A stretch of 64,000 nucleotides of DNA from Knoellia subterranea KCTC 19937 (GTDB lineage Bacteria > Actinomycetota > Actinomycetes > Actinomycetales > Dermatophilaceae), in the NCBI RefSeq assembly GCF_000768685.1, contig NZ_AVPK01000008.1:1-64000 (forward strand). Reading direction: 5' to 3'. The notes below the pieces were generated by a model. It was not told where the DNA came from. It made no database searches and was given only the letters and a program-made list of their open reading frames with translations. Positions 1,564 to 61,225 of this stretch are shown here, piece after piece. The stretch's first letter is position 1, and the number at the start of each line of letters is the position of its first letter. The translations under genes and the position numbers were made by a program.

Positions 1564-2412
1564 ATGCGTCGATTCCTCACCGTCATCTCCGCAGCGCTGC
1601 TCGTCCTCGTCGCGCCTTCGGCCGCGTTCGCCGGGCCGGGCAAGGGCGCGGACAAGCGCGCCGACAAGGCGACGAGCTGGTACCTCGCGCTCGGCGACTC
1701 CCTCGCCGCCGGCTACCAGCCGGGTGCGGGCGATGACCGTGCTGGCGGCTATGTCGGGGGAGTGCTCGATGCCCTCCAGGCGTCGGCTCCCAAGGCCAAA
1801 CTGCGCAACATCTCCTGCTCGGGCGCGACGACGACCTCGATGCTCGGCACGGACCGCTGCACCTACGAGGCCGGATCCCAGGTCGCTGCGGGCGTCGAGT
1901 TCCTCAAGGCCCACAAGGACAAGGTCGACCTCGTGACCATCGACATCGGCGCCAACGACGTCACGCCATGCGTCCGCGCCGCCGACCAGGTGACCTGCGC
2001 CCTCACGGTGCTCGGGACCATCCAGACCAACCTCACGTCGATCCTCGGCCAGTTGCGTGCCGCGACCGGGCCCGACACCCAGATCATCGTCCTCAACTAC
2101 TACAACCCGTTCCTCGCGTCGTGGCTCCAGGGGCCCGAAGGTCAGCAGCTCGCCGGATTGACGAGCTTCCTCCAAACCCTCCTGAACAACACCGTCTCCG
2201 CAGCTGCAGCCACCGTCCAGGCCGATGTCGCGGACGTCGCCACGGCGTTCCGGTCGACGGACACGACTCCAGTCTCGACGGCATACGGCACGATCCCGAC
2301 GAACGTCGCGACGATCTGCGCGTGGACCTGGATGTGCACGAAGCAGGACATTCACGCGAACGACGCAGGGTATGCCGTCCTCGCGGCGACCGTGTCCGCT
2401 CGCCTTTCCTGA
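1564..2412 (+). CDS. Secreted SGNH/GDSL-family esterase
   Basis: 282 residues. An N-terminal signal peptide (MRRFLTVISAALLVLVAPSAAFA, cleavage after AFA) is followed by a Lys/Asp-rich stretch and the block I motif LALGDSLAAGY with the nucleophile Ser. Block III is DIGANDVTPC (Gly and Asn of the oxyanion hole). The block V pair is KQDIHANDAGY, with Asp and His. All four SGNH residues are therefore present. Several Cys residues suggest disulfides outside the cell. Family members hydrolyse lipids or acylated sugars; the substrate here is not known. The ATG follows GGAGCT by a few bases. Confidence 0.85.
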   Translation: MRRFLTVISAALLVLVAPSAAFAGPGKGADKRADKATSWYLALGDSLAAGYQPGAGDDRAGGYVGGVLDALQASAPKAKLRNISCSGATTTSMLGTDRCTYEAGSQVAAGVEFLKAHKDKVDLVTIDIGANDVTPCVRAADQVTCALTVLGTIQTNLTSILGQLRAATGPDTQIIVLNYYNPFLASWLQGPEGQQLAGLTSFLQTLLNNTVSAAAATVQADVADVATAFRSTDTTPVSTAYGTIPTNVATICAWTWMCTKQDIHANDAGYAVLAATVSARLS

Positions 2413-2439
2413 CCGGTCGCCTGCGCCGCATCGCCGTCC

Positions 2440-2445
2440 TACGCT
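2440..2445 (+). promoter_or_regulatory. Putative leaderless -10 box TACGCT
   Basis: TACGCT ends 6 nt before the GTG at 2452. With a start site about 6-7 nt downstream, the transcript would begin at or next to the start codon. Confidence 0.4.
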
Positions 2446-2451
2446 GGCAGC

Positions 2452-2847
2452 GTGCCGATCCCACACGCCGTCACGAAGTTCAACAAGGCCGTCGGCAACC
2501 GGCTGCTCATCCACCTTGCCGGGCACGGCCCCTTCGTCGAGCTCGAGCACGTCGGGCGCCGCTCCGGCCGGACGTATCGGATCCCGCTCAACGCCTTCCG
2601 CCACAGCGATGTCGTCACGCTCGCGCTGACCTACGGGTCGCGCACCGACTGGTACCGCAACGTCGTCGCGGCGAAGGGGTGTCGCGTCCGCATGAGTGGG
2701 CACTGGCTCACCCTCGGCGCACCCCGTCCCGTCAGCACGGAGGAGGGCATGCGCCGGATGCCGTTGATCGCGCGACCGATCCTCCGCACCGCCCAGGTGA
2801 CCGAGTTCGTCGAACTGCCCGTCCTGTCGGAGGAGCCCGCGCCATGA
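2452..2847 (+). CDS. Nitroreductase/deazaflavin-dependent (DUF385, Ddn-like) protein
   Basis: 131 residues with the Ddn/DUF385 pattern: an N-terminal helix, then HVGRRSGRTYRIPLNAFRHSDVVTLALTYGSRTDWYRNVVAAKG. The G-R-R-S-G segment and the D-W-Y-R-N segment are typical of these split-barrel proteins, many of which bind F420 and reduce quinones or nitro compounds. The window also contains cofC, so the cell probably makes F420. GTG start. The stop overlaps the next ATG by 4 bases (ATGA), so it is probably cotranslated with the globin. Confidence 0.8.
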   Translation: MPIPHAVTKFNKAVGNRLLIHLAGHGPFVELEHVGRRSGRTYRIPLNAFRHSDVVTLALTYGSRTDWYRNVVAAKGCRVRMSGHWLTLGAPRPVSTEEGMRRMPLIARPILRTAQVTEFVELPVLSEEPAP

Positions 2848-3278
2848 CCACTGTCTACGAAGCCGCCGGTGGAGCCGACGGCATGCTGCGTCTCGCCGAC
2901 GCGTGGCATCGCCGGGTCATGGCCGATCCCGTTGTCTCACATGCCTTTTCGCACGGATTCCGGGCGGACCACACCGAACGTCTGGCCGCCTATCTGGGCG
3001 AGGCGCTCGGCGGCCCGCAGACCTACACAAAGTCGATGGGCACCGAGTCCGACGTCGTGCGCATGCACTCGGGCAACGGGGTCCACGAGGAGATGGACCG
3101 TCTCGCCCTCGTGGCCTGGGACCGGGCGATCGAGGACTGTGGCCTCGATGCCGACCCGGCACTCCGGGCGACGCTGCACGACTACTGGGCGGACGGCATA
3201 CGGAGAATGGCCGAGCACCACGAAACACCGGACACCGTCCCCGACGGTCTGCCGCTGCAGCGCTGGGTTCTAGGGTGA
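2844..3278 (+). CDS. Truncated globin (group II-like) family protein
   Basis: 144 residues. The sequence runs YEAAGGADGMLRLADAWHRRVMADPVVSHAF, then HTERLAAYLGEALGGPQTY and VVRMHSGNGVHEEMDRLALVAWDRA. The layout of helices and the His in RMHSGN fit the proximal-His region of bacterial truncated globins of the GlbO type. Such proteins bind oxygen or NO, or act in redox reactions. Heme binding is inferred from family resemblance only. The ATG at 2844 overlaps the stop of the F420-type gene, suggesting a functional pair. The stop overlaps a TAGGGT box of the next gene. Confidence 0.72.
   Translation: MTTVYEAAGGADGMLRLADAWHRRVMADPVVSHAFSHGFRADHTERLAAYLGEALGGPQTYTKSMGTESDVVRMHSGNGVHEEMDRLALVAWDRAIEDCGLDADPALRATLHDYWADGIRRMAEHHETPDTVPDGLPLQRWVLG
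3271..3276 (+). promoter_or_regulatory. Putative leaderless -10 box TAGGGT
   Basis: TAGGGT, 6 nt before the GTG at 3283, overlapping the stop codon of the globin gene. It offers the FAH gene an independent promoter inside an apparent operon. Confidence 0.45.
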
Positions 3279-3282
3279 TCCC

Positions 3283-4264: not shown

Positions 4265-4828
4265 TCAGCTCTCGGCTCGCCAGGTCGCTCCGTCGAGGTG
4301 GTAGCCGACGGTCTCGCTGAGGCGGTGCCCCGCCGGCACCTTGGGGTTCGGCCCTTCCCACCGCAGCGTCATCCCGAGTCGTTTCATCACAGCGGTCGAC
4401 GCGGTGTTGGACGCAACGGCCCACGACCAGACGTCGGAAAGACCAAGGCGTCGTATGCCGTCCGCGAGGCTTGCGCTCGCGGCTTCCGTCGCGAAGCCGC
4501 GCCCCCATGCAGACGGGGCGAGGCGCCAGCCCACCTCGACGCCGCCCGGTGAGGGTGAGCCCTCGGGCAGCGTCCACAGACCGGTGAAGCCGATGAACTC
4601 GCCGGTGTCGAGACGTTCGAGAGCCCAAAGGCCGTAGCCGCGCTCGGCGAAGCTCACTCCAATCCGTTCGACGAAGGTCGCCGTCGCAGCGGCGTCCTGG
4701 GCATCGGCGAAGAACTCCGTGACCCGTGGATCAGCGTTCATCGCGGCAAACGGAGCCACATCTGACTCGCGCCACCCGCGCAGCAGGAGGCGGTCGGTGT
4801 GGAGCAGCGGCGGGGGAGCGGACGGCAT
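4265..4828 (-). CDS. GNAT family N-acetyltransferase (RimJ/RimL type)
   Basis: 187 residues from the ATG at 4828. An upstream in-frame start would add 23 poorly conserved residues, so I prefer the one leading directly into LLHTDRLLLRGWRESDVAPFAAMNADPRVTEFF, the standard opening of the RimJ/RimL subgroup. VEVGWRLAPSAWGRGFATEAASA carries the acetyl-CoA binding loop (R/Q-x-x-G-x-G/A: WGRGFA), and NTASTAVMKRLGMTLRWEG is the usual C-terminal motif. Acceptor unknown. The octamer CGGCATAC overlaps the start codon region. Confidence 0.85.
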   Translation of the reverse strand: MPSAPPPLLHTDRLLLRGWRESDVAPFAAMNADPRVTEFFADAQDAAATATFVERIGVSFAERGYGLWALERLDTGEFIGFTGLWTLPEGSPSPGGVEVGWRLAPSAWGRGFATEAASASLADGIRRLGLSDVWSWAVASNTASTAVMKRLGMTLRWEGPNPKVPAGHRLSETVGYHLDGATWRAES

Positions 4829-4945
4829 ACAAAAAATTCTCGTCGACCCTGTCGTATCCCGTCGAGTCCATTCGTGGAGAGGATGAGACGACGTCACAGG
4901 GCGCCAGCAGAGGCGGCCCGTCGCTCATCCGACAGGAGAACCACC

Positions 4946-5302: not shown

Positions 5303-6549
5303 CCTCACCCGATTCCGCTGCCGCTCTCGGTGCGGACGCCGTCGCCGACGTCGTCCGCACCGAGTACGGCAAGGTCGTCGCCGGGCTCATCCGACGCTTC
5401 GGCGACATCGGCCTGGCCGAGGACTCCCTCGGCGAAGCCGTCCTCATCGCGCTCGAGCGGTGGCCGCAGGACGGTGTCCCACCCAACCCCGCCGGGTGGC
5501 TCACGACGACGGCCAGCCGCAAGGCGCTGGACCACCTGCGTCGCGAGAAGGTGCGCGACGAGAAGTACGCCGAGGCAGCCATGCTCACCGACGACACACC
5601 CCCGGAAGCCACCGGACCCGTCACCGACGACCGGCTCCGCCTGATCTTCACCTGCTGCCACCCGGCCCTCGCCGAACCGGCCCGGGTCGCGCTGACGCTG
5701 CGGCTGCTCGGCGGCCTCACGGTCGGCGAGATCGCGAGCGCTTTCCTCGTGCCCGAGACGACGATGGCGCAGCGCATCACTCGGGCGAAGGCCAAGATCG
5801 CCAAGGCCCGCATTCCCTATCGGGTCCCGGAACAGCAGGACCTCGCCGAGCGCCTCGCCGGCGTGCTCGCGGTCCTCTACCTCGTCTACAACGAGGGCTA
5901 CCTCAGCTCGAGCGCCGACAACGCCGACCGGCAGGACCTCGCCGACGAGGCCATCCGCCTGACGCGTGCCGTCCGCGGCATCAGCGAGGGCATCGGATCG
6001 CCGCCCGAGGTCGACGGGCTCCTCGCCCTCATGCTTCTGTCCCAGGCCCGCCGCCCCGCGCGGTTCGCCGACGACGGCACGCTCGTCACTCTGGACAATC
6101 AGGACCGCACGCAATGGGACAGCGTGCTCATCGACGAGGGCCACGCCATCGTGCGGGAATGCCTGCGCCGCAACGCTCCCGGGCCCTACCAGTTGCAGGC
6201 AGCCATCCAGGCGGTGCACACGGACGCCCTCGAAGCCTCGCTCACCGACTGGGACCAGATCGTGGCGCTCTACGACCAGCTCATGGCGGTGCAGCCAACC
6301 CCGATCGTCGCCCTCAACCGCGCCGTCGCCGTCGCCGAGCTCGACGGGCCGCAGGTGGCCCTGGCGGCGGTCGACGGACTGGGCCTCACGGCATACGCAC
6401 CGTGGCACGCAACCCGAGCGGACCTGCTGGGCCGTCTGGGACGTGACGACGACGCACGACGCGCGTATGCCGCCGCGATCGCGACCACGGACAACCCCGC
6501 CGAGCGTGCGTGGCTGGCGACGCGGCGCGAGTCGCTCGGTGGTCGCTGA
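5299..6549 (+). CDS. ECF sigma factor of the ECF42 (DGPF-associated) type with long C-terminal domain
   Basis: 416 residues from the GTG overlapping the YCII stop. Sigma region 2 lies near the start (IRRFGDIGLAEDSLGEAVLIALERWP, then NPAGWLTTTASRKALDHLRRE). Region 4 follows (LRLLGGLTVGEIASAFLVPETTMAQRITRAKAKI). After residue about 175 there is a roughly 230-residue helical extension (LAGVLAVLYLVYNEGYLSSSA and onwards) ending in TPR-like helices. ECF42 members are known for this extension and for lacking an obvious anti-sigma factor, and none is seen here. The sigma factor may be controlled through the extension. Confidence 0.9.
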   Translation: MTSPDSAAALGADAVADVVRTEYGKVVAGLIRRFGDIGLAEDSLGEAVLIALERWPQDGVPPNPAGWLTTTASRKALDHLRREKVRDEKYAEAAMLTDDTPPEATGPVTDDRLRLIFTCCHPALAEPARVALTLRLLGGLTVGEIASAFLVPETTMAQRITRAKAKIAKARIPYRVPEQQDLAERLAGVLAVLYLVYNEGYLSSSADNADRQDLADEAIRLTRAVRGISEGIGSPPEVDGLLALMLLSQARRPARFADDGTLVTLDNQDRTQWDSVLIDEGHAIVRECLRRNAPGPYQLQAAIQAVHTDALEASLTDWDQIVALYDQLMAVQPTPIVALNRAVAVAELDGPQVALAAVDGLGLTAYAPWHATRADLLGRLGRDDDARRAYAAAIATTDNPAERAWLATRRESLGGR

Positions 6550-7805: not shown

Positions 7806-9338
7806 ATGACTGAGCACCCCACCCCCGCAGCCAGCAGCCCTCGACTTCGCGTCGCCCCGTCCCCGACGGGTGACCCGCACGTCGGCACGGCATACATGTC
7901 GTTGTTCAACCTCGCGTTCGCGCGACAGCAGGGTGGGCGCTTCCTCCTGCGCATCGAGGACACCGACCGGGCGCGCTTCCGCGAGGACAGCGAGCAGCAG
8001 GTCTTCGACACGCTCCACTGGCTCGGGCTCACCTGGGACGAGGGCCCGGACATCGGCGGTCCCTACGCGCCCTACAAGCAGAGCGAGCGCCTCGACACCT
8101 ACCGTCCCTACGTCGAGCGGTTGCTGGAGGACGGCAAGGCCTATTACTGCTGGTGCTCCGGCGAGCGCCTCGCCCAGATGCGCGAGATGCAGCAGAAGAC
8201 GAAGCAGCCGACCGGCTACGACCGGCTCTGCCACGGCAAGACGCGCGAGGAGCGCGCCGCCCTGCCCGGGTTCACCGACAAGGACCCGGTCGTCCGCATG
8301 CTCATCCCGGACGACGCCCCGCTGACCTTCGACGACCTGATCCGTGGCACAGTCGCCGCGCCCCGCCCGGACGACCAGGTCATCCTCAAGGCCGACGGCT
8401 TCCCGACCTACCACCTGGCCGTCGTCGTCGACGACCACGAGATGGGCATCACCCACGTCGTCCGCGGCGAGGAGTGGATCAGCTCGACGCCGAAGCACGT
8501 CCTGCTCTACCAGTGGCTCGGTCTCGAGCCGCCGAAGTTCGCGCACATGCCGCTGCTGCGCAACGCCGACAAGTCGAAGATCTCCAAGCGCAAGAACCCG
8601 GCCGCGCGCCTCACGTGGTTCAAGGAGGAGGGCTACCTCCCCGAGGCGCTCGTGAACTTCCTTGCGCTGCTTGCGTATCCGCCGGTGCTCGAGGTGGACG
8701 GCACGGAGCGCGAGGTCTTCACGTTCCGCGAGTTCAGCGACGGCTTCGACTGGAAGAAGGTCAACCCGGTCGGCCCGATCTTCGACCTCAAGAAGCTCGA
8801 CTGGCTCAACGGTGTCTACATCCGCGAGCTCGATCTGGGCGACTTCACCTCGCGCCTCCTGCCGTTCCTCGAGCGTGACGAGGTGCTCTCCGGCAACCCG
8901 TCGCTCGGGGAGCTCGGTCGGCTCAAGGCCGTGGCCGAGCTCATCCAGACGCGCATCGCCCACCTCACCGAGGCCTCGGCTCTCGTCCGGCCGTTCTTCG
9001 TCGCCGATGACGCGCTGGAGATCGCCGAGGATGCCCGCGGTCAGCTCAAGGAGGACGCGGGTCAGGTCCTCGACGCGGCCATCGCGGCGCTCGGCGACAT
9101 CGACGACGCCGGCACGGGCCCACTCGGGTCGGACAGCGGCTTCAACGCCGCGGCGATCGAGGCATCCCTGCGCGAGTCCATCGTCGAGGGCCTCGGCATC
9201 AAGCCGAAGTTCGCGTTCGGGCCGCTGCGCACCGCCGTCTCCGGTCAGCGGATCAGCCCGCCGCTCTTCGAGTCGATGGAGATCCTCGGCAAGACCTCGA
9301 CGCTCGCACGCCTCCAGGGGCTGCGCGACTCGCTGTGA
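7806..9338 (+). CDS. gltX: Glutamyl-tRNA synthetase
   Basis: 510 residues, a normal class I GluRS. The HIGH-type motif is at residues 25-28 (SPTGDPHVGTAY) and the KMSKS-type loop at 256-260 (KSKISKRKN). LRIEDTDRARFRE and WDEGPDIGGPYAPYKQSERLDTY are typical GluRS blocks. Actinobacteria generally lack GlnRS and use a non-discriminating GluRS plus GatCAB to make Gln-tRNA. The location 0.8-1.0 kb upstream of tRNA-Gln and tRNA-Glu fits that use. The stop overlaps the HAD gene start (GTGA). Confidence 0.97.
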   Translation: MTEHPTPAASSPRLRVAPSPTGDPHVGTAYMSLFNLAFARQQGGRFLLRIEDTDRARFREDSEQQVFDTLHWLGLTWDEGPDIGGPYAPYKQSERLDTYRPYVERLLEDGKAYYCWCSGERLAQMREMQQKTKQPTGYDRLCHGKTREERAALPGFTDKDPVVRMLIPDDAPLTFDDLIRGTVAAPRPDDQVILKADGFPTYHLAVVVDDHEMGITHVVRGEEWISSTPKHVLLYQWLGLEPPKFAHMPLLRNADKSKISKRKNPAARLTWFKEEGYLPEALVNFLALLAYPPVLEVDGTEREVFTFREFSDGFDWKKVNPVGPIFDLKKLDWLNGVYIRELDLGDFTSRLLPFLERDEVLSGNPSLGELGRLKAVAELIQTRIAHLTEASALVRPFFVADDALEIAEDARGQLKEDAGQVLDAAIAALGDIDDAGTGPLGSDSGFNAAAIEASLRESIVEGLGIKPKFAFGPLRTAVSGQRISPPLFESMEILGKTSTLARLQGLRDSL

Positions 9339-10066
9339 CCTTCGCTGGCGTCCTGCTCGACGCCGACGACACGCTCTACGACACCCGCGCGGCGATGCAC
9401 CGCGCGGGTGCCGAGGTCGCGCACCGGCTCTGGCCGCACGCCGATCCGGCGCGCCTGGAGTTCGTCGGCGTCCGCTTCCGCGACGACCCGGAGGGGTGGT
9501 TCGCGGCCTACACGCGCGGCGAGCTCGACTTCGACGACATGCGCACCCGCCGCATCGACGAGATCGGGCGCTGGCTCGGGTCCGAGGAGGTCGTCGAACC
9601 GGCGCGCTTCTTCGCGCTCTACGAGCCGGCTTTCCACGAGGCGCTGGAGGCTTTTGACGACGTCCACCCAACAGTGGCGGCGTTGCGTGAGAGCGGCCGC
9701 GCGGTCGGCATCCTGACGAACTCCTCGGCCGACTACACCGACACGAAGCTGGCGGCCTCGGGTCTCGATGGCGTCTTCGACGTCATCTGCTCACGCGACA
9801 CGCTCGGCTTCGGCAAGCCCGACCCCCGGGCCTTCCATGAGGCGTGTCGTCGTCTCGGCACGGATCCCTCGGAGACGCTCTACGTCGGCGACGACCTGCA
9901 CACGGATCCGTTGGGAGCCAACGGCGCCGGTATGCCGGCCGCCTGGCTCGTGCGCGACGGTCACGTCGCTGAGGCGGACCGGAAGGTGGTCTCGGCACAC
10001 GGCATACCGGTCGTCTCCGGCCTCGCAGAGGTGGCCGATTTGGGCGCGGGGGAGGGACGCAGGTAG
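9335..10066 (+). CDS. HAD-superfamily hydrolase (phosphatase-like)
   Basis: 243 residues from a GTG that overlaps the gltX stop by 4 bases. HAD motif I is slightly changed: LLDADDTLYDT, with the nucleophile Asp and DxDxT replaced by DADDT. Motif II is GILTNSS, motif III the Lys in FGKPDPRAFHEACRRLG, and motif IV is YVGDDLHTDPLGA. A helical cap lies between motifs I and II. This is the subgroup with phosphoglycolate phosphatase-like and haloacid dehalogenase-like enzymes. Substrate unknown; coupling to gltX may only reflect shared transcription. Confidence 0.88.
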   Translation: MTFAGVLLDADDTLYDTRAAMHRAGAEVAHRLWPHADPARLEFVGVRFRDDPEGWFAAYTRGELDFDDMRTRRIDEIGRWLGSEEVVEPARFFALYEPAFHEALEAFDDVHPTVAALRESGRAVGILTNSSADYTDTKLAASGLDGVFDVICSRDTLGFGKPDPRAFHEACRRLGTDPSETLYVGDDLHTDPLGANGAGMPAAWLVRDGHVAEADRKVVSAHGIPVVSGLAEVADLGAGEGRR

Positions 10067-18736: not shown

Positions 18737-18742
18737 AGCGTA
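18737..18742 (-). promoter_or_regulatory. Putative leaderless -10 box TACGCT for metB
   Basis: TACGCT on the minus strand, 6 nt before the GTG at 18730. Its first three bases are the end of a CGGCATAC octamer, so octamer and -10 box share bases. Confidence 0.45.
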
Positions 18743-45273: not shown

Positions 45274-45381
45274 GCCTCCAGTGTCGCACCGGCGCGCCGA
45301 GCGCCGAACGGGGGCGGACGGCATACGCCGTAGTGATCCGGGACCACGACGAAACGTGATTCTTACAGCCGCGGGGAACGT

Positions 45382-47306: not shown

Positions 47307-49685
47307 ATGGGTGAGGGCGTGAACGTGTGTGACGTCGCGGCACGACGGCTCGACCTCGCGGGCACTCGGGCCTTCGAGACGGTCGGCTCGGGAGTGGAGC
47401 GCCGCGAGCGCCTCGCGGAGTTCAACCGCACCTGGATCGGTGGGCTCTGGGAGGAGGCGACTCGCGGTCAGCGCGTGGACGGTGTTGCGCTCGCGGCCGT
47501 CGGCAGCGTCGGGCGTGGGGACGCCGGGCCGCTGTCGGACTACGACCTGGTCCTCCTGCACTACGGCCGGACGCTCTCCACGGAGGAGATCACCCGGCTG
47601 GCCGACCGCATCTGGTACCCGATCTGGGATGCGGGGGTGCGCCTTGACCACAGCGTTCGCACCGTGAACCAGTGCCGCACGGTCGCCGCGGACGATCTCA
47701 CCGCGGCTGTCGGGCTCCTCGACATCGCACCGCTCGCCGGCGACCGCGAAGTGGTGGCCGCGGCCCGGGCCACGGTGAGCCACGACTGGCGAGCGAACGC
47801 CCGCAAGCGCCTGCCCCAGCTCACCGAGGCGATGGCGGTCCGCCACCACCGGCACGGCGACCTGGCGCAGTCGATCGAGCCGGAGCTCAAGGAAGCCCAC
47901 GGTGGGCTGCGCGACATGACGATCCTCAAGGCCCTGGCCGAGGCGTGGCTGGCCGACCGCCCCCGGGGTGAGGTCGACGCGGCTCACGGACTCCTCCTCG
48001 ACGTGCGCGACGCCGTGCATGTCGTCACGGGCCGGGGACGGGACCGCCTTGGGCGCGAGGACCACGACGCCGTTGCCGCCCTCCTCGGCTACGGCGACCC
48101 GGACGACCTGCTCGCCGACGTCTCCGATGCTGGCAGGACCATCGCGTATGCCGTGGACGGCACCGTCCGTCGGGCCGGCCAGTCCCAGCGCGCTCGCGTC
48201 CTGCGGGTGGGGCCGCGGCGCCCACAGATGACCCCACTGGGTTATGGCCTCTTCGAGAGTGACGGCGAGGTCGTGCTCGGATCCGGGCGGCTCGTCGACA
48301 GCGACCCGAACCTGCCGCTGCGTGCCGCGGTGATCGCGGCCCGGGCCAACCTGCCCATTGCCCCGACGACCCTCGAGAACCTCGCGACGAAATGCGCTGA
48401 CCTCCCCACGCCGTGGACGCCTCTGGCGCGAGGCCTGCTCAGCGACCTCCTCGCCTCCGGTCCGGGACTCGTGACCGTCTGGGAGGGCCTGGACCAGCAG
48501 GGCATCGTCGAGAAATGGTTGCCGGAGTGGGCTGCCGTGCGCTCGCGCCCGCAACGCAACGCCGTCCACCGGCACACGGTCGACCGCCACCTCATCGAGA
48601 CGGTGGTCCACGCGACCGGTCTGCTGCGCGGGGTCGGTCGGGCCGATCTGCTGCTCCTCGCTGCCCTGCTACACGACATCGGCAAGGTGCCTGGTGCCCA
48701 CGACCACTCTGCGACCGGCGCCCCGATCGCCGAGGCGGTCATGCGTCGCCTTGGGCACTCCGATGACGACGTCGCGACCGTCGTGTCGCTCGTGCGCGAG
48801 CACCTCACCCTCATCGAACTCGCCACCCGCCGCGACCACTCGGACCCCCTCACGATCGATGCGGCGCTCGCAGCGGTCGACGGCGACCGGGAGCGCTTCG
48901 AACTGCTCGTCGCGCTGACCGAGGCCGATGCCGTGGCTGCCGGGCCCAAGGCCTGGACCGATTGGCGGGCCGCGCTCCTGGGTCAGCTCGCCACGGCGGT
49001 GCGGGCTCGCCTGGATCCGGCCACGCCAGCGTTCGGCGAGGCCGAACCCTCCCTGGTGCCCGATGACCTCGTCACGACCCTCGCCGCGGGTGAGCCCTTC
49101 GTCGACGTCGTGCCCAACGGTGGCTCGTATCGCATCGACATCGCCGACCGCGATCGGCTCGGACTCTTCGCCGACACGGCCGGCCTCCTCGCCGCCGAGG
49201 GCCTCGTCGTCCGCACCGCGGTCCTGCGCACCGTCGAAGGAGTCGCCGTGAACGAGTGGCACGTCGAGAGCCCGAGCGACGCAGTGCCCGAGAAGGACCG
49301 CCTCGTCCGCGGCCTCATGCGGCTCGCCACCGGTGATCGCGGTCCACTCAGCCTGCTCGATCGTCGACGCCAGTTCGCGGCCCGGCCGAGCGGTGCGTCG
49401 ACGATCGGCACCCCCGGACAGCCGCGCGCCCTGGTCGTCCCGGGCGCGAGCACCGACGCCACGGTCATCGAGGTGCGCGCCCACGACCGTCCCGGGCTCC
49501 TGCACGAGCTCGGCATGGCCTTCGCGAAGGCAGGAGTTTCGGTGCGCTCCGCGCACATTGCCACGTATGCCGGCCAGACTCTTGACACCTTCTATGTCTC
49601 GGACTTCTCCGGTCGCCCTCTCGAACCGGCGAAGGTGGCGCAGGTCGTCGCGGTCGTCATCGACACGTGTGACGGGACCACCTGA
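47307..49685 (+). CDS. glnD: PII nucleotidyltransferase/deadenylylase GlnD
   Basis: 792 residues. The N-terminal nucleotidyltransferase domain has AAVGSVGRGDAGPLSDYDLVLLH. The HD hydrolase domain follows at about residues 440-560 (LLLLAALLHDIGKVPGAHDHSATG). Two ACT domains close the protein (RIDIADRDRLGLFADTAGLLA and VIEVRAHDRPGLLHELGMAFAKAGVSVRSAHI). It modifies and demodifies GlnK in response to glutamine. Third gene of the amt operon, separated from glnK by the long hairpin. Confidence 0.96.
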   Translation: MGEGVNVCDVAARRLDLAGTRAFETVGSGVERRERLAEFNRTWIGGLWEEATRGQRVDGVALAAVGSVGRGDAGPLSDYDLVLLHYGRTLSTEEITRLADRIWYPIWDAGVRLDHSVRTVNQCRTVAADDLTAAVGLLDIAPLAGDREVVAAARATVSHDWRANARKRLPQLTEAMAVRHHRHGDLAQSIEPELKEAHGGLRDMTILKALAEAWLADRPRGEVDAAHGLLLDVRDAVHVVTGRGRDRLGREDHDAVAALLGYGDPDDLLADVSDAGRTIAYAVDGTVRRAGQSQRARVLRVGPRRPQMTPLGYGLFESDGEVVLGSGRLVDSDPNLPLRAAVIAARANLPIAPTTLENLATKCADLPTPWTPLARGLLSDLLASGPGLVTVWEGLDQQGIVEKWLPEWAAVRSRPQRNAVHRHTVDRHLIETVVHATGLLRGVGRADLLLLAALLHDIGKVPGAHDHSATGAPIAEAVMRRLGHSDDDVATVVSLVREHLTLIELATRRDHSDPLTIDAALAAVDGDRERFELLVALTEADAVAAGPKAWTDWRAALLGQLATAVRARLDPATPAFGEAEPSLVPDDLVTTLAAGEPFVDVVPNGGSYRIDIADRDRLGLFADTAGLLAAEGLVVRTAVLRTVEGVAVNEWHVESPSDAVPEKDRLVRGLMRLATGDRGPLSLLDRRRQFAARPSGASTIGTPGQPRALVVPGASTDATVIEVRAHDRPGLLHELGMAFAKAGVSVRSAHIATYAGQTLDTFYVSDFSGRPLEPAKVAQVVAVVIDTCDGTT

Positions 49686-49707: not shown

Positions 49708-51306
49708 GTGTTCAACAGCCTCTCCGACCGCCTGACGTCGACCTTCAAGAATCTCCGCAGCAAGGGGCGCTTGACCGAGTCCGACGTCAACAAGACCGTC
49801 CGCGACATCCGCCTGGCGCTGCTCGACGCCGACGTGGCCCTGCCCGTCGTCAAGGAGTTCACGTCTGCCGTCCGTGAGCGCGCCCTCGGTGCGGAGGTGT
49901 CCCAGGCGCTCAACCCGGGCCAGCAGGTCGTCAAGATCGTCAACGACGAGCTCGTCGACATCCTCGGCGGTGAGACGCGCACGATCCGCTTCGCCAAGAG
50001 CGGGCCGACGGTCATCATGCTCGCCGGCCTCCAGGGTGCGGGCAAGACCACGCTCGCGGGCAAGCTCGCCTACTGGCTCAAGGAGCAGGGCCACACGCCG
50101 ATGCTCGTAGCGGCCGACCTCCAGCGACCCAACGCCGTCACGCAGCTCCAGGTCGTCGGCGAGCGGGCCGGCGTTCCAGTCTTCGCGCCGGAGCAGGGCA
50201 ACGTCGGTGGCCACGACGCGGTCGGGCCCACGGGGGAGGGGACCCGCAGCTTTGGTGACCCGGTCGCGGTGTCTCGGGACGGCATACGCGAAGCCGTGTC
50301 CAAGCACCACGACGTCGTCATCGTCGACACCGCCGGCCGGCTCGCCGTCGACGCCGACCTCATGGCGCAGGCCGGTCAGATCCGCGAGGCGATCAACCCC
50401 GACGAGGTCCTGTTCGTCATCGACGCGATGATCGGTCAGGCGGCCGTCGAGACCGCGACTGCGTTCCTCGACGGCGTCGACTTCACCGGTGTCGTCCTCT
50501 CCAAGCTCGACGGTGACGCCCGCGGTGGTGCGGCGCTGTCCGTCGCCGGAGTGACCGGCCGTCCGATCATGTTCGCCAGCACCGGCGAGGGCGTGAAGGA
50601 CTTCGAGGTCTTCCACCCCGACCGCATGGCCTCGCGCATCCTCGACATGGGTGACGTGCTCACCCTCATCGAGCAGGCCGAGAAGGCGTTCGACCGTGGC
50701 CAGGCTGCCGAGATGGAGCGCAAGTTCCTCGCGGCCGAGGACTTCACCTTCGACGACTTCCTCCAGCAGACTGCGGCCATCAAGAAGATGGGCTCGCTCA
50801 AGTCGATGCTCAAGATGATGCCGGGCATGGGCCAGATGGCGTCCCAGCTCGACAACCTCGACGAGCGCGAGTTCGACCGCGTCGAGGCCATGGTCCGCTC
50901 GATGACGCCGTTCGAGCGCAACCACCCGAAGCAGATCAACGGCTCTCGCCGCGCCCGCATCGCCGGCGGTTCCGGTGTGACCGTGTCCGAGGTCAACCAA
51001 CTGCTCGAGCGCTTCGGTGAGGCGCAGAAGATGATGAAGCAGCTCGCCCGCGGCGGTGGCATTCCGGGCATGCCCGGCATGGGTGGCGGCAAGAAGGCGC
51101 GTCAGCAGCAACAGCAGGTGCGCGGCAAGAAGTCGAAGTCGGGCAACCCCGCCAAGCGCGCCGCCGAGGCCAAGGCGGCGGCCGAGCGCTCGTCGTCCAA
51201 GCCCGCGGGTTCGGCGTTCGGTGGCGGCGCCGCCGGTGGGCTCGACCCCGCTGCCATGGACCCGTCCCAGTTGCCGAAGGGCTTCGAGAAGTTCCTCGGC
51301 AAGTGA
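49708..51306 (+). CDS. ffh: Signal recognition particle protein Ffh
   Basis: 532 residues, GTG start. N-domain FNSLSDRLTSTFKNLRSKGRLTESDVNKTVRDIRLALLDADV; G-domain with GLQGAGKTTLAGKLA, DLQRPNAVTQL, IVDTAGRLAVDADLMAQ and LSKLDGDARGGAALS. The Met-rich M-domain starts at about residue 320 (MGSLKSMLKMMPGMGQMASQLDNLDE) with SGVTVSEVNQLLERF for SRP RNA and signal peptide binding, then a Gly/Lys/Gln-rich tail. Between FAPEQGN and FGDPVAVSRDGI there are about 14 extra residues absent from common Ffh proteins. The stop overlaps the next start. Confidence 0.97.
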   Translation: MFNSLSDRLTSTFKNLRSKGRLTESDVNKTVRDIRLALLDADVALPVVKEFTSAVRERALGAEVSQALNPGQQVVKIVNDELVDILGGETRTIRFAKSGPTVIMLAGLQGAGKTTLAGKLAYWLKEQGHTPMLVAADLQRPNAVTQLQVVGERAGVPVFAPEQGNVGGHDAVGPTGEGTRSFGDPVAVSRDGIREAVSKHHDVVIVDTAGRLAVDADLMAQAGQIREAINPDEVLFVIDAMIGQAAVETATAFLDGVDFTGVVLSKLDGDARGGAALSVAGVTGRPIMFASTGEGVKDFEVFHPDRMASRILDMGDVLTLIEQAEKAFDRGQAAEMERKFLAAEDFTFDDFLQQTAAIKKMGSLKSMLKMMPGMGQMASQLDNLDEREFDRVEAMVRSMTPFERNHPKQINGSRRARIAGGSGVTVSEVNQLLERFGEAQKMMKQLARGGGIPGMPGMGGGKKARQQQQQVRGKKSKSGNPAKRAAEAKAAAERSSSKPAGSAFGGGAAGGLDPAAMDPSQLPKGFEKFLGK

Positions 51307-52133
51307 GCGCCGAACCGGCCGTGACCGACCCGCTGCACACGCTGTCGGTCGGCACTGCCGGTCCGCGCATCGCGTTCCTGCACGGCCTGTTCGGTCAGGG
51401 CCGCAACTGGTCGACGATCGCCAAGGGCCTGGCTGGGCCGTCGCTCGACGGAGTCCGCGCGACGCTCGTCGACCTTCCTGATCACGGTCGCAGTCCGTGG
51501 TCGGCCGGCTTCTCCTTCGAGGGGTATGCCGTGTCCGTCGCCTCGACCTTGCGCGCCATCGACGCCGGGCCCTGGATCGTCGTGGGGCACTCGCTCGGCG
51601 GCAAGGTCGCCATGACCCTGGCACTGACCGAGCCCGACCTCGTCTCGAAGCTCGTCGTCGTCGACATCGCACCCAAGAGCTACGGCAACCTCGACCGGTT
51701 CACCGGCTACATGGACGAGATGCAGCGGCTACCGCTGGGGGAGCTGCGCGATCGAGCGGACGCCGAGGCGCGATTCGACGAGCAGGATCCCGGGGTCAAG
51801 GCCTTCCTTTTGCAGAACCTCCGGAGGGAGGGTGCAGCCTGGCGCTGGCAGGCCAATCTCGACCTGTTCACCGCCGACGGGGCGCGTGGCGACGAGTCCG
51901 TCATCGCCGACTTCCCCTTCGAGCCGGGGGAGGTCGAACCGTTCGACGGCCCGGTGCTCTGGATCAAAGGTGGCGAGAGTCGCTACATCAAGGACGAGGA
52001 CTCCGAGCGCATGCGCGGTTTCTTCCCCCGGGTGCGGCTGCTCACGGTCAAGGGTGCCTCGCACTGGGTGCACAGTGACGCGCCCGCGGTCGTCACCGAA
52101 GCGCTGCGTCGTGTCGTGCAGTCGGAGTCCTGA
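51303..52133 (+). CDS. Alpha/beta-hydrolase (YbfF-like esterase)
   Basis: 276 residues from a GTG overlapping the ffh stop (GTGA). IAFLHGLFGQGRNWSTIAKGL holds the oxyanion HG motif, VDLPDHGRSPW is the strand before the nucleophile, and VVGHSLGGKVAM has the nucleophile Ser97. The acid is probably in the LWIKGGESRYIKDED strand and the catalytic His is in GASHWVHSDAP. It resembles YbfF-type esterases. Native substrate unknown; coupling to ffh may not be functional. Confidence 0.88.
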   Translation: MSAEPAVTDPLHTLSVGTAGPRIAFLHGLFGQGRNWSTIAKGLAGPSLDGVRATLVDLPDHGRSPWSAGFSFEGYAVSVASTLRAIDAGPWIVVGHSLGGKVAMTLALTEPDLVSKLVVVDIAPKSYGNLDRFTGYMDEMQRLPLGELRDRADAEARFDEQDPGVKAFLLQNLRREGAAWRWQANLDLFTADGARGDESVIADFPFEPGEVEPFDGPVLWIKGGESRYIKDEDSERMRGFFPRVRLLTVKGASHWVHSDAPAVVTEALRRVVQSES

Positions 52134-52699: not shown

Positions 52700-53788
52700 A
52701 TGACGGGTTCGGTGCTGCACCTGGTGGGAGAGGTCCTCGTCGGACCGGAGGACGTGCGACCCGAGGCGTGGGTCATCGGGGGTCGACTGACCTTCGAGCG
52801 ACCGACCGGTGCGGGGCACGACGTCGAGACGCTCCGTGGCTGGTTCGTGCCCGGGATGGTCGACGCCCACTGCCACGTCGGCCTCGATCGCCACGGAGCC
52901 GTCGACGACGCGACCGCCGAGCAGCAGGCCACGACCGACCGCGACAACGGCACCCTGCTCATCCGGGACGCCGGGTCACCTCTCGACACGCACTGGGTCG
53001 ACGAGCGCGACGACCTGCCCAAGATCATCCGGGCCGGACGCCACATCGCCCGCCCCAAGCGCTACATCCGCAACTTCGCCTGGGAGGTCGAGCCCGAGCA
53101 GCTCGTCGAGCGCGTGCGGATCGAGGCCCGCGCCGGCGACGGCTGGGTCAAGCTCGTCGGCGACTGGATCGATCGGGAAACCGGCGACCTCGAGCCGTGC
53201 TGGCCCGCCGACGTCCTCGCCGAGGCCATCGCCGCCGCGCACGAGGAGGGTGCCCGCACGACCGCGCACTGCTTCGGGCCGGACTCACTGCGCGACTTCG
53301 CGGCGGCAGGCACCGACTGCATCGAGCACGCCACCGGACTCGAGGCCGACACGATCGATTCCTTTGCGGCACAGGGGGTTGCCATCGTCCCGACGCTCGT
53401 CAACATCGCCACGTTCCCGGCCATCGCCGAGCCCGCGAGGGAGAAGTTCCCCGACTACCACCGGCGGATGCTTGATCTGCACGCCCGACGCTACGAGACG
53501 TTCGGCGCGGCGCGAGAGGCCGGCATACCCATCTATCTCGGAACCGACGCGGGCGGTTCGATCGCCCACGGACTCGCGGCGCAGGAAGCCGTCGAGCTGT
53601 CCCGGATCGGGTTCAGCAACACCGAGGTGCTGGGCGCGGCGACGTGGGGGGCGCGCGAGTGGCTCGGGCGGCCGGGTCTCGAGGAGGGTGCCGACGCAGA
53701 CTTCCTCGCCCTCGATCGGGACCCCCGACAGGACATCACCGCGCTGGGCGAACCCAGCGCGGTGGTCCTGCGCGGTGTGACCTGGTGA
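52700..53788 (+). CDS. Amidohydrolase-superfamily enzyme
   Basis: 362 residues. The metal site starts with HxH in GMVDAHCHVGLD; then a candidate carboxylated Lys in DGWVKLVGDW, His in RTTAHCFG and IEHATG, and the Asp in IYLGTDAGGSIAHG. This is the imidazolonepropionase/prolidase-like layout of a TIM-barrel hydrolase. All metal ligands appear to be present. The substrate (cyclic amide, dipeptide or similar) is not predictable. Confidence 0.87.
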   Translation: MTGSVLHLVGEVLVGPEDVRPEAWVIGGRLTFERPTGAGHDVETLRGWFVPGMVDAHCHVGLDRHGAVDDATAEQQATTDRDNGTLLIRDAGSPLDTHWVDERDDLPKIIRAGRHIARPKRYIRNFAWEVEPEQLVERVRIEARAGDGWVKLVGDWIDRETGDLEPCWPADVLAEAIAAAHEEGARTTAHCFGPDSLRDFAAAGTDCIEHATGLEADTIDSFAAQGVAIVPTLVNIATFPAIAEPAREKFPDYHRRMLDLHARRYETFGAAREAGIPIYLGTDAGGSIAHGLAAQEAVELSRIGFSNTEVLGAATWGAREWLGRPGLEEGADADFLALDRDPRQDITALGEPSAVVLRGVTW

Positions 53789-54868: not shown

Positions 54869-55336
54869 GTGGACATCTCGGCGCGCACGGAGTACGCGGT
54901 GCGCGCGATGCTCCTGCTGGCCCAGGCCGCCTCTCGGGATGCGGGGCCGGTGAGCGTCGACGGACTTGCCACGGCCCAGTCCTTGCCGCGCAAGTTCCTC
55001 GAAGCCATCGCCGCGGACCTGCGCGCCGCCGGGCTCGTCACGAGCACGCGTGGCGCCCGCGGCGGCTACGCTCTGGCGCGACCCGCGGAGGACATCGCCC
55101 TCGGCGACGTCTTTCGCGCCGTGGACGGACCCCTCGCGGAGGTGAGGGGACTGCGTCCGCACGAGACGGCATACGACGGCGTCGCCGAGCACCTCCCCAC
55201 CGTGTGGGTCGCCGTGCGTGCAGCCTTGCGGGCCGTCCTCGACGAAACCTCGCTCGCCGATGTCCTGAGCGGCGACCTGCCCACCACCGTCCGTGACCTC
55301 ACCGCCGACCCGGAAGCCTGGATGAACCGCGCATGA
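54869..55336 (+). CDS. Rrf2-family transcriptional regulator without cysteines
   Basis: 155 residues from the GTG at 54869 (VDISARTEYAVRAMLLLAQAA), the usual Rrf2 start; an ATG at 54839 would add ten residues and overlap the putative operator. SVDGLATAQSLPRKFLEAIAADLRAAGLVTSTRGARGGYALARP is the winged HTH. The three Cys that bind Fe-S in IscR or NsrR are absent, so this is not an iron-sulfur sensor but may resemble CymR-type members that answer to sulfur metabolism. The TauE neighbour fits sulfur control. It overlaps the SDR gene by 4 bases. Confidence 0.87.
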   Translation: MDISARTEYAVRAMLLLAQAASRDAGPVSVDGLATAQSLPRKFLEAIAADLRAAGLVTSTRGARGGYALARPAEDIALGDVFRAVDGPLAEVRGLRPHETAYDGVAEHLPTVWVAVRAALRAVLDETSLADVLSGDLPTTVRDLTADPEAWMNRA

Positions 55337-56904: not shown

Positions 56905-56919
56905 GAGTGGGTATGCCGC

Positions 56920-57900
56920 ATGGTCGCCTTCGCTGAGTGGGTCCGGTCCGAATTCGGGCTCGGCACAGGCCCGCTCACGTTCGTGGTCGGTGGGCGAGGT
57001 GCTGTCGGCGAGGTGTATCGGCTCTCGGTTGGTGGCGTCGAGTTCGCGGTGAAGCGACCGTTCCGCGGGGTCGATGTCGATGCGATCCGGCGGGAGGCGC
57101 TCCTGCTCGATCACCTTGCGGCGCAGGGGATCGACGTCCCGACGCACGTCGTGGCGTCGGGCGGTCGGCTCGTTGTCGAGGTGCCGAGCGACCTCGGCGG
57201 CGGCAGCGCCCGCGTCAGCCACTGGGTCGAGGGTGAGCCCGTCGGCAACGGTGGCTCTGCTGTGGCCGAGCAGCTCGGAGCCCTTCTCGCACAGCTGCAT
57301 CGGGCTGGCCCATCGACCGATGAGGTGCCGCCGAACTGGTACACGACGATGGTCCCCGCCGACGAGTGGGCGGCCCTCGTGCAGCGTTCCGTCGGCCAGC
57401 CCTGGCACGAAGCCCTCGTGGCACGGGAAGGCGACCACGCGGCATACCGGAGCGTTGTCGACCGGGCCGGCCCGGGAACGGGGCCGTTCGTCCTCGGGCA
57501 CCGCGACTTCCACCCCGACAACGCGGTCATCGCTCCGGACGGCAGTCTGCGTGCGCTCGACTGGGAGTGCTGCGGACCGCTCGATCCCACACGGGAACTC
57601 GCGAAGACGCTCGTGCAGTGGCATGTGTTGGGGGAGGTCATTGACGAGGACGCTGTGGCGCGGACTGTCACTGCGTATGTCGAAGCGGGCGGGACGGGAG
57701 TGGTGAGGGCGATCGACGACTTCGCGATGGTCATGTGCACCGAGACCAACTTCCTCGCCAGCCAGATCAGGCTGGCCCTCGCCGACGCCGCGCCCGACGA
57801 GCGCAGAGCCCAGGCGCGCGGTGAGATCGAGGAGTCGCTGGCCGGCTACCTGCCGAGCCTCGCCGCGCTGGAGCGGGTGCTCGACATCGCCACGGCATAG
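56920..57900 (+). CDS. Aminoglycoside phosphotransferase (APH)-family kinase-like protein
   Basis: 326 residues. A Gly-rich N-lobe GGRGAVGEVYRLSVGGVEFAVKRP contains the Lys; VLGHRDFHPDNAVI is the Brenner motif with the catalytic Asp and Asn; and LRALDWECCGPLDPTREL holds the metal Asp. APH folds phosphorylate small molecules such as sugars, homoserine, or amino-glycosides, and resistance is not implied. The last 55 bases overlap the convergent membrane-protein gene. GTATGCCG lies immediately before the ATG. Confidence 0.86.
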   Translation: MVAFAEWVRSEFGLGTGPLTFVVGGRGAVGEVYRLSVGGVEFAVKRPFRGVDVDAIRREALLLDHLAAQGIDVPTHVVASGGRLVVEVPSDLGGGSARVSHWVEGEPVGNGGSAVAEQLGALLAQLHRAGPSTDEVPPNWYTTMVPADEWAALVQRSVGQPWHEALVAREGDHAAYRSVVDRAGPGTGPFVLGHRDFHPDNAVIAPDGSLRALDWECCGPLDPTRELAKTLVQWHVLGEVIDEDAVARTVTAYVEAGGTGVVRAIDDFAMVMCTETNFLASQIRLALADAAPDERRAQARGEIEESLAGYLPSLAALERVLDIATA

Positions 57901-59360: not shown

Positions 59361-59377
59361 GCCCGACGCCTGACACC

Positions 59378-59412
59378 GAACGCGCCGCGTCCCTCCGGGG
59401 CGCGGCGCGTTC
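59378..59412 (+). terminator. Hairpin between khpA and rimM, possible internal terminator
   Basis: GAACGCGCCGCG (59378-59389) and its exact complement (59401-59412) with an 11-nt loop, 17 nt after khpA. There is only weak T-richness after the stem, so it may slow rather than stop the polymerase within the operon. Confidence 0.6.
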
Positions 59413-59450
59413 GTGCGTCCAGCCACACCCCGCCTGAGAGGATCAGACCC

Positions 59451-60005
59451 ATGGCCAGCAACTCCGACGCCCTCCTCGTCGCCCGCATCGGCAAACCCCA
59501 CGGACTCCGTGGCGAGGTGACCGTGCAGGTGCACACCGACGACCCGATGGGGCGCTTCGTCGCGGGTCAGGTCTTCGACACCGAGGCGGCCCCGGGGACA
59601 GGCGTGCCGCGCCGTCTCACACTCGCCACGGCCCGGAAGCACCGCGAGATCTGGCTCCTAGGCTTTGCCGAGATTCCCGACCGCACCGGCGCCGAGTCGC
59701 TGCGTGGGACGCGTCTGCTCCTCGATGTCACCTCCGCCGACATCGAGGGCGAGGAGGACGAGGACGAGGGCTTCTACGAGCACGACCTCGTCGGGCTCGC
59801 TGTGCACGACCCTTCGGGTGCCGCCCTGGGTGAAGTCACCGGGCTGCTCGTCGGTGCCGCGCAGGACCTGCTCGAGGTGCGCCTCAGCGACGGCCGCGAC
59901 GTGCTCGTGCCGTTCGTCGAAGCGATCGTGACCGAAGTGGACCTCGACGGCGGTCACGTCGTCGTCGACGCCCCGGCCGGCCTGTTCGACCTCGACGAGG
60001 CGTGA
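59451..60005 (+). CDS. rimM: Ribosome maturation factor RimM
   Basis: 184 residues. [25 protein letters not shown] is the RimM N-terminal domain, then [12 protein letters not shown]. The second part is a PRC barrel ([76 protein letters not shown]). It binds S19 during 30S assembly. Its stop touches the trmD region. Confidence 0.96.
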
Positions 60006-60019
60006 GGGGCGAACGCACC

Positions 60020-61225
60020 ATGCGCCTGGACGTCGTCTCGATCTTCCCGGACTACCTCGCACCACTCGACCTCTCGCTCATCGGCAAGGCCCGCCGGGAC
60101 GGCCTGCTCGACCTCACGGTCCACGACCTGCGCGACTTCGCCCACGATCGGCACCGCACCGTCGACGACACGCCCTACGGAGGGGGCGCCGGGATGGTCA
60201 TGAAGCCACAGCCGTGGTCGGAGGCGCTGGATCACGTTGTGGCACAGGGCAGTTCGGCGTTCCCCGGAGCCGCAGAACGCGTTCCCACCCTCATCGTCCC
60301 CGGTCCCGGTGGCGAGCCGTTCACGCAGCAGATCGCCAAGGACCTGGCCGAGGAGCCCTGGCTCGCGTTCGCCTGCGGCCGCTACGAGGGCATCGACGAA
60401 CGCGTCTACGAATGGGCGGGGGAGCGCATGCCCGTGCGCATCCTCTCGCTCGGCGACTACGTCCTCAACGGGGGAGAAGTCGCGGTGCTCGCCATGGTCG
60501 AAGCCATCGCTCGGCTCCTCCCCGGTGTCATCGGCAACGCCGAGTCGCTCATCGAGGAGTCGCACGAGGACGGCCTGCTCGAGTATCCCGTCTACACCAA
60601 GCCCGCCGAGTGGGACGGCCGCGCCGTGCCCGAGGTGCTGCTCGGCGGCAACCACCGGGCCATCGCGGAGTGGCGTCACGAGCAGCGGGTCCAACGGACT
60701 GCGGCGCGTCGTCCGGACCTGCTTCCGCCGGTTGCTGCGGCCGCGGCGCTCGCCGACCTCGAGGAGCGGGTCGCGACCCCCGCCGATGCCCCCGACCTCC
60801 AGGTGCTCACCCGGGCCTGCTGGGCGCCGGAGTTCGCCCGCTACGGCATGTTCGGGGCAGGCGAGGAGGACCTCGAAACGGTGCGGGACGGCATACAGGA
60901 ATGGGACACGCGCGTGTGGCGCCGAGACGGCACCCTGATCGCCTCCGTCCGCGTCCGACCGCACCCGACCCGGGAAGCGACGTGGCAGATCGGGCGGCTC
61001 ATGGTTGCGCCGTATCTCCAGGGCCGTGGCCTGGGACGCGAACTGCTGGCGTATGCCGAGTCGCTGGCTCCCGAGGACATCCGCACGTTCTGGCTCAACA
61101 CCGGTGCGAAGTCGACGGAGAACCTCCGGATGTATCGCAAGGCGGGGTATCGCGTGCGCCCGGGTGAGGGCGAGTTCCCCGGCACCGTCGACCTCACGAA
61201 GCGGCTGGTGTCGGCGGGGGACTGA
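60020..61225 (+). CDS. trmD: tRNA (guanine37-N1)-methyltransferase TrmD fused to a GNAT domain
   Basis: 401 residues from the ATG at 60020 (a GTG at 60002 overlapping rimM would add six). Residues 1 to about 240 are a full Trm[51 protein letters not shown] and [21 protein letters not shown] with the SAM-binding knot. From about residue 255 there is a GNAT acetyltransferase: [56 protein letters not shown] (acetyl-CoA loop GRGLGR) and [15 protein letters not shown]. TrmD makes m1G37 and prevents frameshifts. rplS, the usual next gene, does not follow. Confidence 0.94.

Follow-up and report, generated by a model that had tools for sequence, protein, structure and literature searches.

Short sequence words that mark DNA for uptake have been described in the Neisseriaceae and the Pasteurellaceae, as far as the published excerpts available to us go. 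According to these sources, the DNA uptake sequence (DUS) of the Neisseriaceae occurs at a density of about one copy per 1.1–1.5 kb, with paired copies in intergenic gaps and with dialects within the family, and the even spacing of the uptake signal sequence (USS) of the Pasteurellaceae is claimed by one author and doubted by another. Neither CGGCATAC nor an uptake sequence in Actinobacteria was the subject of any paper among the literature matches listed from open-licence PubMed Central. Here we analyse the octamer CGGCATAC in a stretch of 64,000 nucleotides of Knoellia subterranea KCTC 19937 (contig NZ_AVPK01000008.1, positions 1 to 64,000; hereafter the window), in the window's own genome (G000; 3.57 Mb in 33 contigs) and in related bacteria. 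The octamer looks like a tag for recognising DNA of the own kind, and its sequence patterns lead us to favour, with a confidence that falls somewhat short of even, a strand-specific DNA-uptake (self-recognition) signal in Actinobacteria. Other octamer classes also invite comparison: Chi of Escherichia coli (GCTGGTGG), which is read directionally as an octamer on a single strand and lies mostly on the leading strand; HIP1 of cyanobacteria, a very frequent palindromic octamer (GCGATCGC) iterated through genes and gaps; and the FtsK-type orienting polar sequences (KOPS), which form a class of non-palindromic octamers.

In the window, CGGCATAC has exactly 45 copies, 23 on the plus and 22 on the minus strand, and ranks first among all octamers by excess over a first-order model. 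Dinucleotide shuffles predict 0.62 copies per window, and a second-order model with the motif masked predicts about one per 64 kb (7.3 per 464 kb). An earlier sequence-only reading of the window had counted about 45 copies, split 22 and 23, and had placed them correctly, including the close opposite pairs 2279/2370, 6389/6465, 9930/10000 and 20168/20250. The motif-free stretches that it singled out do exist as gaps of 3–4 kb, which the gap table shows to be ordinary at this density. The genome-wide count, set beforehand as the refuting test, gave 1,211 + 1,233 = 2,444 copies in G000 against 32 + 22 = 54 of the reversed word, so the excess stands.

All nine genomes of the genus carry the motif, with 982–1,655 copies per strand. 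In a sample of the family (149 genomes from 53 genera, taken evenly from a larger group and labelled with G-numbers), counts summed over both strands were bimodal: 81 genomes had at least 600 copies, 54 had at most 150 and 14 lay between. The ratio of CGGCATAC to the reversed word was at least 2.5 in the high-copy and at most 5 in the low-copy genomes, and the density in seven sampled carrier genomes was 0.42–0.95 per kb, comparable to that published for DUS. Outside the family, the comparison covered 229 genomes drawn from 19 further families of the same order, and not one was enriched; the largest count among them was 94 per strand, with 44 and 91 copies of the reversed word. Among 80 named SMC loci, five contained 11–17 copies per ~23.6 kb (an unnamed Micrococcales metagenome-assembled genome, UBA4719, Terrabacter, Flexivirga and Serinicoccus), one Phycicoccus and two Janibacter loci contained none, and the other 72 had 0–2. 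From the closest named loci, we infer that the family of G000 is of the Intrasporangiaceae type; NCBI places Terrabacter in the Intrasporangiaceae and Flexivirga in the Dermacoccaceae.

Two features extend the initial observation: the arrangement of the copies on the two strands and the changed words of some relatives. When all sites of G000 are pooled, their spacing is random (coefficient of variation, CV, 0.96 versus 0.995 ± 0.06). Neighbours 110–1000 bp apart, however, comprise 20 pairs in the same and 91 in opposite orientation, where about 86 of each are expected (p=5e-12). Both kinds of opposite arrangement are present, and same and opposite pairs become equal in number past ~2 kb. Gaps between sites on the same strand average 3.05 kb and are more even than random ones (CV 0.709 versus 0.993 ± 0.057; none of 2000 trials reached so low a value); gaps shorter than 1 kb or longer than 8 kb are under-represented. 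The exclusion of same-orientation neighbours means that each strand bears its own set of sites, and it marks something that is read strand by strand and reaches over about 1 kb; the close inverted pairs noticed at the outset belong to this pattern. As a control, 54 G000 octamers of similar frequency formed 4,114 same and 3,573 opposite pairs, and the lowest same-orientation fraction among them was 0.41 versus 0.18 for the motif. Exclusion was also seen in the other carrier genera when pooled (491 sites; 89 same versus 195 opposite pairs at 110–1000 bp, p=3e-10) and in seven congeners (21 versus 82), whose regions are mutually orthologous, so that their pairs are not independent. Even same-strand gaps were likewise found in G148, G104 and G033.

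On the scale of the chromosome, there is no polarity: 400 kb held 135 and 119 sites in the two orientations, without a trend in eight 50-kb bins, and the strand difference was at most 2.3 sigma in the 81 high-copy genomes. KOPS and replication polarity were rejected on these grounds. The balance between strands, which had been taken as an argument against a polar element, thus holds for the chromosome as it does for the window (23/22). Locally the argument fails and the element is polar: up to a distance of about 1 kb, neighbours in the same orientation are excluded and opposite ones are not.

The anatomy of the motif was studied in 464 kb of G000 containing 299 sites. Outside called genes, the consensus reads AGGYGRGCGGA-CGGCATAC-C and continues with T at positions +12 and +15 through +19 (numbered from the first C); A-11, A-6 and A-1 as well as these T positions are conserved in the intergenic sites. 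The mean match to the 11-base left flank was 7.45/11 at intergenic sites and 4.5–6.5 for copies in coding frames, while randomly chosen places gave 3.7. A-11 and T+16 exceed the codon background in both main coding frames, which shows that the flanks are not merely a terminator effect, and A-1 does so in the Ala-Tyr frame. The reverse partner octamer lies within 40 bp upstream of 14 of 77 intergenic sites, where a hairpin is possible. The core itself is all-or-none: among the 71 places with a flank match of at least 10/11, the core is perfect in 26, and cores with one or two mismatches do not occur. Words with a single mismatch are about as frequent in G000 as expected (332 versus 300) with the exception of CGGCATAG (24 versus 5.6), and in its near-match excess the Haemophilus influenzae USS differs from the G000 motif. 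To judge from its flanks, CGGCATAC is the core of a genome-wide signal about 20–30 bp long.

In coding frames, 74 sites spell Ala-Tyr and 104 spell Tyr-Ala. GCA makes up 1,346 of 17,418 Ala codons. Where an Ala-Tyr pair follows an xCG codon, however, 74 of 122 are written GCA-TAC, whereas GCA occurs in just 7 of 233 other Ala-Tyr pairs; likewise, 104 of 129 Tyr-Ala pairs of G_G context are written TAT-GCC versus 40 of 223 elsewhere. The motif therefore does force rare codons, as had been suggested, and because its coding copies come from codon choice, REP-like mobile elements (repetitive extragenic palindromes) were rejected. It is also present in gaps, again as proposed: 47 of the 299 sites lie beyond even extended open frames, against 22.3 expected (p=1.4e-6). 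As our home-made gene caller misplaces starts (site 7888 is within a gene and was called outside), 77 of 299 is an upper figure for intergenic sites and 47 of 299 the strict one.

Across seven congeners with 81–83% identity to G000, 157 of 208 aligned orthologous octamers were perfect, compared with 28.8% of all octamers and 45–48% for CGGCATG/CGGCATC; the 208 remained from 315 site-by-congener cells after 101 unaligned and 6 gapped ones had been dropped. Some sites are recent, such as 31974..31981 (plus strand), which is absent in all seven congeners. Contig C1 of G000 contains a stretch of 15.1 kb without any copy (209842-224975, loci L099-L100; GC 62.5%), which looks like an acquired polysaccharide island and is a single low-GC case of possible depletion in acquired DNA. 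To judge from their first residues, the genes of the stretch resemble those for glycosyltransferases, chain-length proteins and a nucleotide-sugar dehydrogenase.

Furthermore, relatives carry variants of the word. CGGCATCC reaches 1,805–2,258 copies per strand in G024, G071, G033, G108 and G122, while G051 and G085 have both CGGCATCC (983–1,116) and CGGCATAC (566–623) in abundance; the other 142 family genomes have 111–674 copies of CGGCATCC per strand. In sampled stretches, CGGCATCC was found 171 times per 140 kb in G108 (13.8 expected), 88 times per 100 kb in G033 (8.4) and 58 times per 80 kb in G024 (5.7). Its same-orientation exclusion is weaker, with 111 same and 180 opposite pairs at 110–1000 bp in these three genomes pooled. 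G067 and Flexivirga are also enriched for CGHCATAC and G104 for CGYCATAC, and CGNCATAC is a further dialect word; a test for cross-exclusion between the dialect words of G067, G104 and Flexivirga gave 52 same and 67 opposite pairs at 110–1000 bp and led no further. In gene trees, G033 and G024 fall near G032/G075, and G108 and G051 fall beside the window's genus. Since the CGGCATCC genomes do not form one group, the word changed at least twice. Within the genus g44, G051 and G085 have mixed words as if in the middle of a dialect change, and their congeners G108 and G122 have mostly CGGCATCC. The low-copy genomes G075 and G128 adjoin the high-copy genomes G032 and G104 in gene trees; GGTCTACG was checked in G128 as a candidate word, with no clear outcome.

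A word one letter off the motif, CGGCGTAC, is the top octamer under a third-order model in seven Nocardioides loci (L025, L029, L030, L033, L035, L036 and L046), where neighbours less than 400 bp apart numbered 4 in the same orientation versus 23. An octamer scan of nine groups of loci had it as top word in 12 Nocardioidaceae loci. Pairs at 60–1000 bp in the Nocardioidaceae were 23 same and 47 opposite (p=0.003 among 406 words; non-significant after correction), so that a mild exclusion is suggestive only. In G087, 69 of 91 copies of CGGCGTAC lie in two frames and 3 are intergenic, which looks like a codon effect.

An uptake-like signal, one of the roles considered for the octamer from the window alone, is the best fit so far because of its density, its core plus flanks, its dialects, the paired copies in gaps and the island without copies; its strand logic is unlike that of DUS. 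We suggest that such a signal would be read strand-specifically in bacteria with one membrane. It could either set which strand of a fragment enters via ComEC or be read on the single strand itself. If the motif has to be present on the one strand that is imported, a further copy would be useful only where the imported length has no copy in the same orientation, and opposite copies would be irrelevant; one correctly oriented copy in every one to a few kb of strand would then suffice and a second would add nothing. An orientation-blind receptor for double strands, as reported for H. influenzae, would presumably exclude neighbours whatever their orientation. Tagged fragments could recombine into relatives more often, so that biased gene conversion would spread the tag as far as codons permit, and drift in receptor specificity could produce the dialects. 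More tentatively, and with a probability somewhat below that of an uptake role as such, this may be a signal of a new kind: a tag read on the single strand, with each strand tiled separately (mean 3 kb in G000, few gaps below 1 kb), which would make the own single-stranded DNA recognisable. It would be a self-recognition sequence of Gram-positive bacteria whose dialects differ between close relatives and possibly reach the Nocardioidaceae as CGGCGTAC.

The machinery for uptake is common in the family: ComEC was found in 145 of the 149 genomes, ComEA in 144 (of which 75 exceed the curated cut-off) and the pilus ATPase in 148. A PilM match was absent in 144 genomes and present in 5, and a receptor on a PilM-type type IV pilus was accordingly rejected. 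In Micrococcus luteus, also an actinobacterium, transformation depends on Flp pili, according to the accessible part of a published study. We found no gene that follows the motif among ComEC, ComEA, pilus ATPase, PilM and RecC in the 149 genomes, nor in 14 pilus-ATPase loci (7 high-copy, 7 low-copy) and 6 com loci compared by eye, in which gene names other than ComEA and ComEC are guesses. Most of the 14 loci L115-L128 hold a Flp/Tad-type pilus cluster in a shared neighbourhood, in genomes with and without the motif. In a few genomes, the ComEC match is split over adjacent pieces (G095, high-copy; G096 and G146, low-copy).

Several observations weigh against an uptake signal. Neither competence genes nor pilus genes track the copy number, since high- and low-copy genomes have both, and no carrier species was reported as transformable among the literature matches listed. 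The ComEC tree has the grouping seen in the other gene trees, and ComEA, where its rows allow a statement, is not grouped by dialect either. No convincing replacement word was found in the low-copy genomes G075 and G128. Apart from CGGCATAG, G000 has no surplus of near-matches to the core. Moreover, the known signals that served as controls (stretches of IMG/VR contigs, partly prophage and partly redundant, filtered for at least 0.5 words per kb) do not consistently share the strand logic: DUS shows no exclusion at 110–1000 bp (148 same and 168 opposite pairs, versus 20 and 91 in G000), and USS is mixed, its 55 same and 70 opposite pairs being composed of 23/9 at 110–400 bp and 32/61 at 400–1000 bp. 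In the parts of the literature available, uptake by H. influenzae is reported to be independent of orientation. The exclusion itself is not uniform, since it is missing in Flexivirga alone (8 same, 11 opposite pairs at 110–1000 bp) and for CGGCATCC in G024 alone (14 same, 13 opposite), and the evenness of same-strand gaps failed in three of seven sets (G067, G015 and G108). The two words of the mixed genome G051 do not exclude each other (37 same, 39 opposite at 110–1000 bp), and compensation for lost sites was not seen (7/43 for lost versus 16/135 for kept sites).

The pattern could have other origins. The main rival, which we nevertheless regard as unlikely, is a Chi-like recombination hotspot. 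It would be read from one direction by AdnAB, the nuclease that processes DNA ends in actinobacteria, and would make the enzyme change over from degradation to recombination. After a random double-strand break, either side would need a correctly oriented site, and another in the same orientation would be redundant within the processing range. This idea predicts both the independence of the two strands and the redundancy of same-orientation sites, unrelated to opposite ones, and is not tied to competence genes. It also accords with the absence of RecC from all nine genomes of the genus, for which reason the RecBCD-Chi system itself was rejected; in the family, RecC is rarer in high-copy (24/81) than in low-copy genomes (29/54; p=0.007, kinship uncorrected). 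However, E. coli Chi shows no same-orientation exclusion (among 83 sites in 400 kb, 12 such pairs lie less than 1 kb apart versus 13.1 expected), and its preference for the leading strand has no counterpart here on the scales tested. A flank consensus of ~20–30 bp would be unexpected, and a dialect change inside one genus (g44) would be surprising if a repair enzyme were the reader. The accessible part of a 2026 paper calls it unclear how AdnAB manages a Chi-like stage. A site for strand discrimination or nicking in mutation repair, following the logic of MutH and GATC in non-palindromic form with a nickable site per strand within ~1–2 kb, would explain one even set per strand, the reach of ~1 kb, the independence of orientations and the strong conservation. 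The dialect changes would then require a switch of the whole genome with no drive to spread it; we rate this reading as improbable.

Scarcely more probable than a repair site is a site for a nucleoid or chromosome-organising protein, or a HIP1-like word. Thousands of copies in genes and gaps with conserved flanks would suit it, but it gives no reason for the exclusion of same-orientation neighbours or for the evenness on each strand, and spacing is random when strand is ignored. The HIP1-like proposal made for the window is moreover a poor match, since HIP1 is palindromic and CGGCATAC is not. An artefact of codon pairs or composition can practically be dismissed. It draws on the 178 of 299 sites in Ala-Tyr or Tyr-Ala frames, but a codon-pair model, named in the sequence-only reading as a second refuting test, fails to explain the copies because of the intergenic excess (47 versus 22.3) and the flank consensus, which is strongest in gaps; the excess stands in this respect too. 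Nor does such an artefact account for the rarity of the reversed word (54 versus 2,444), the lack of exclusion in the 54 control octamers or the 0–2 copies in 23-kb loci of other families, many of them with 70–75% GC. A full explanation of CGGCATAC by codon pairs is thus refuted; codon pairs may explain CGGCGTAC in G087.

The individual copies in the window are diverse in context. On the plus strand, copies in the Ala-Tyr frame lie at 2279..2286 (which forms an opposite pair with 2370), 6389..6396, 13771..13778, 17159..17166, 26043..26050, 55167..55174 and 57440..57447; those in the Tyr-Ala frame, at 2370..2377, 6465..6472, 13403..13410, 26219..26226, 49565..49572, 51524..51531 and 61051..61058, are on the minus strand. 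The full 11/11 flank, AGGTGAGCGGA, is present at 35182..35189 (plus). Flanks matching at 8/11 accompany 3194..3201, 20250..20257 and 29359..29366 (plus) and 4453..4460, 9930..9937 and 35372..35379 (minus), and one of 9/11 accompanies 4823..4830 (plus). Outside called genes are 15429..15436 and 56911..56918 (minus), 43553..43560 (plus, flank 10/11) and 45319..45326 (plus, flank 9/11). The copy at 7888..7895 (plus), which the gene caller misplaced, is within the open reading frame (ORF) 7806-9338 of a class-I (Glu/Gln) tRNA synthetase; that at 18740..18747 (minus) overlaps the start of a D-Ala-D-Ala ligase-like ORF (18742-19917), and that at 21750..21757 (plus) begins 2 bases past the end of ORF 20642-21748. 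The smc gene contains 36761..36768 (minus) and 38230..38237 (plus), and a peptidase M13 gene contains 40837..40844 (minus) and 41976..41983 (plus). Further exact matches are found at 10000..10007, 50280..50287, 53521..53528 and 60889..60896 on the plus strand and at 20168..20175, 27545..27552, 32838..32845 and 39631..39638 on the minus strand. The window also has one close pair in the same orientation, its only one below 130 bp, formed by 44774..44781 and 44843..44850 (both minus), the latter of which is lost in three of seven congeners (G003, G005 and G006); 48146..48153 (minus) is lost in six of the seven.

The Illumina P7 adapter contains CGGCATAC, but the flanks of the 45 window copies differ and contamination by adapter was rejected. 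A second recurrent word in the window, CCAAGAAGG/CCTTCTTGG, has 13 copies versus 0.16 expected under a first-order model and may reflect codon pairs. The Janibacter indicus locus L011 contains CCCCTTCG/CGAAGGGG 17 times (2.2 expected) and CCCCCTTC 11 times (1.1 expected) in 23.6 kb.

If the octamer is an uptake signal, sequence-specific DNA exchange would extend to bacteria with one membrane, maps of dialects could predict partners in gene exchange, and the motif would give access to the question of which strand is chosen in uptake. Should it be Chi-like instead, it would bear on the stated question of how AdnAB switches. Moreover, same-orientation exclusion provides a simple test for strand-read signals in other genomes and could find more of them.

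Compared with the known systems, the motif shares with Chi that it is a non-palindromic, over-represented octamer; it differs in its exclusion, which E. coli Chi lacks, its greater length, its lack of strand bias and the absence of RecC from the genus. HIP1 is palindromic, in contrast to the motif with its strand logic and its dialects, and KOPS follow a chromosome polarity not seen for CGGCATAC. With USS, the motif has in common a short core with flanks, including a T-rich downstream part, and, as far as the available excerpts describe USS, many copies on both strands; the present word is a different one and its left flank is GC-rich. In the USS controls, all 19 of 19 pairs below 60 bp were opposite, and in Haemophilus-type stretches opposite pairs (61) exceeded same pairs (32) at 400–1000 bp in a redundant sample. 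DUS, again in the published parts available, resembles the motif as a short non-palindromic word found every ~1–1.5 kb in genes and gaps, with inverted pairs as terminators and dialects in relatives; in the DUS controls, 109 of 112 pairs below 60 bp were opposite. Whether or not by coincidence, the present consensus reads ATGCCGTCCG on its reverse strand, which resembles ATGCCGTCTG in DUS. Here, however, the carriers are Actinobacteria, 144 of 149 of the family genomes are without a PilM match and the core is all-or-none. Taken as an uptake signal, the motif would work like DUS and USS but is not filed as a member of their class, because its strand logic differs from that of the DUS control.

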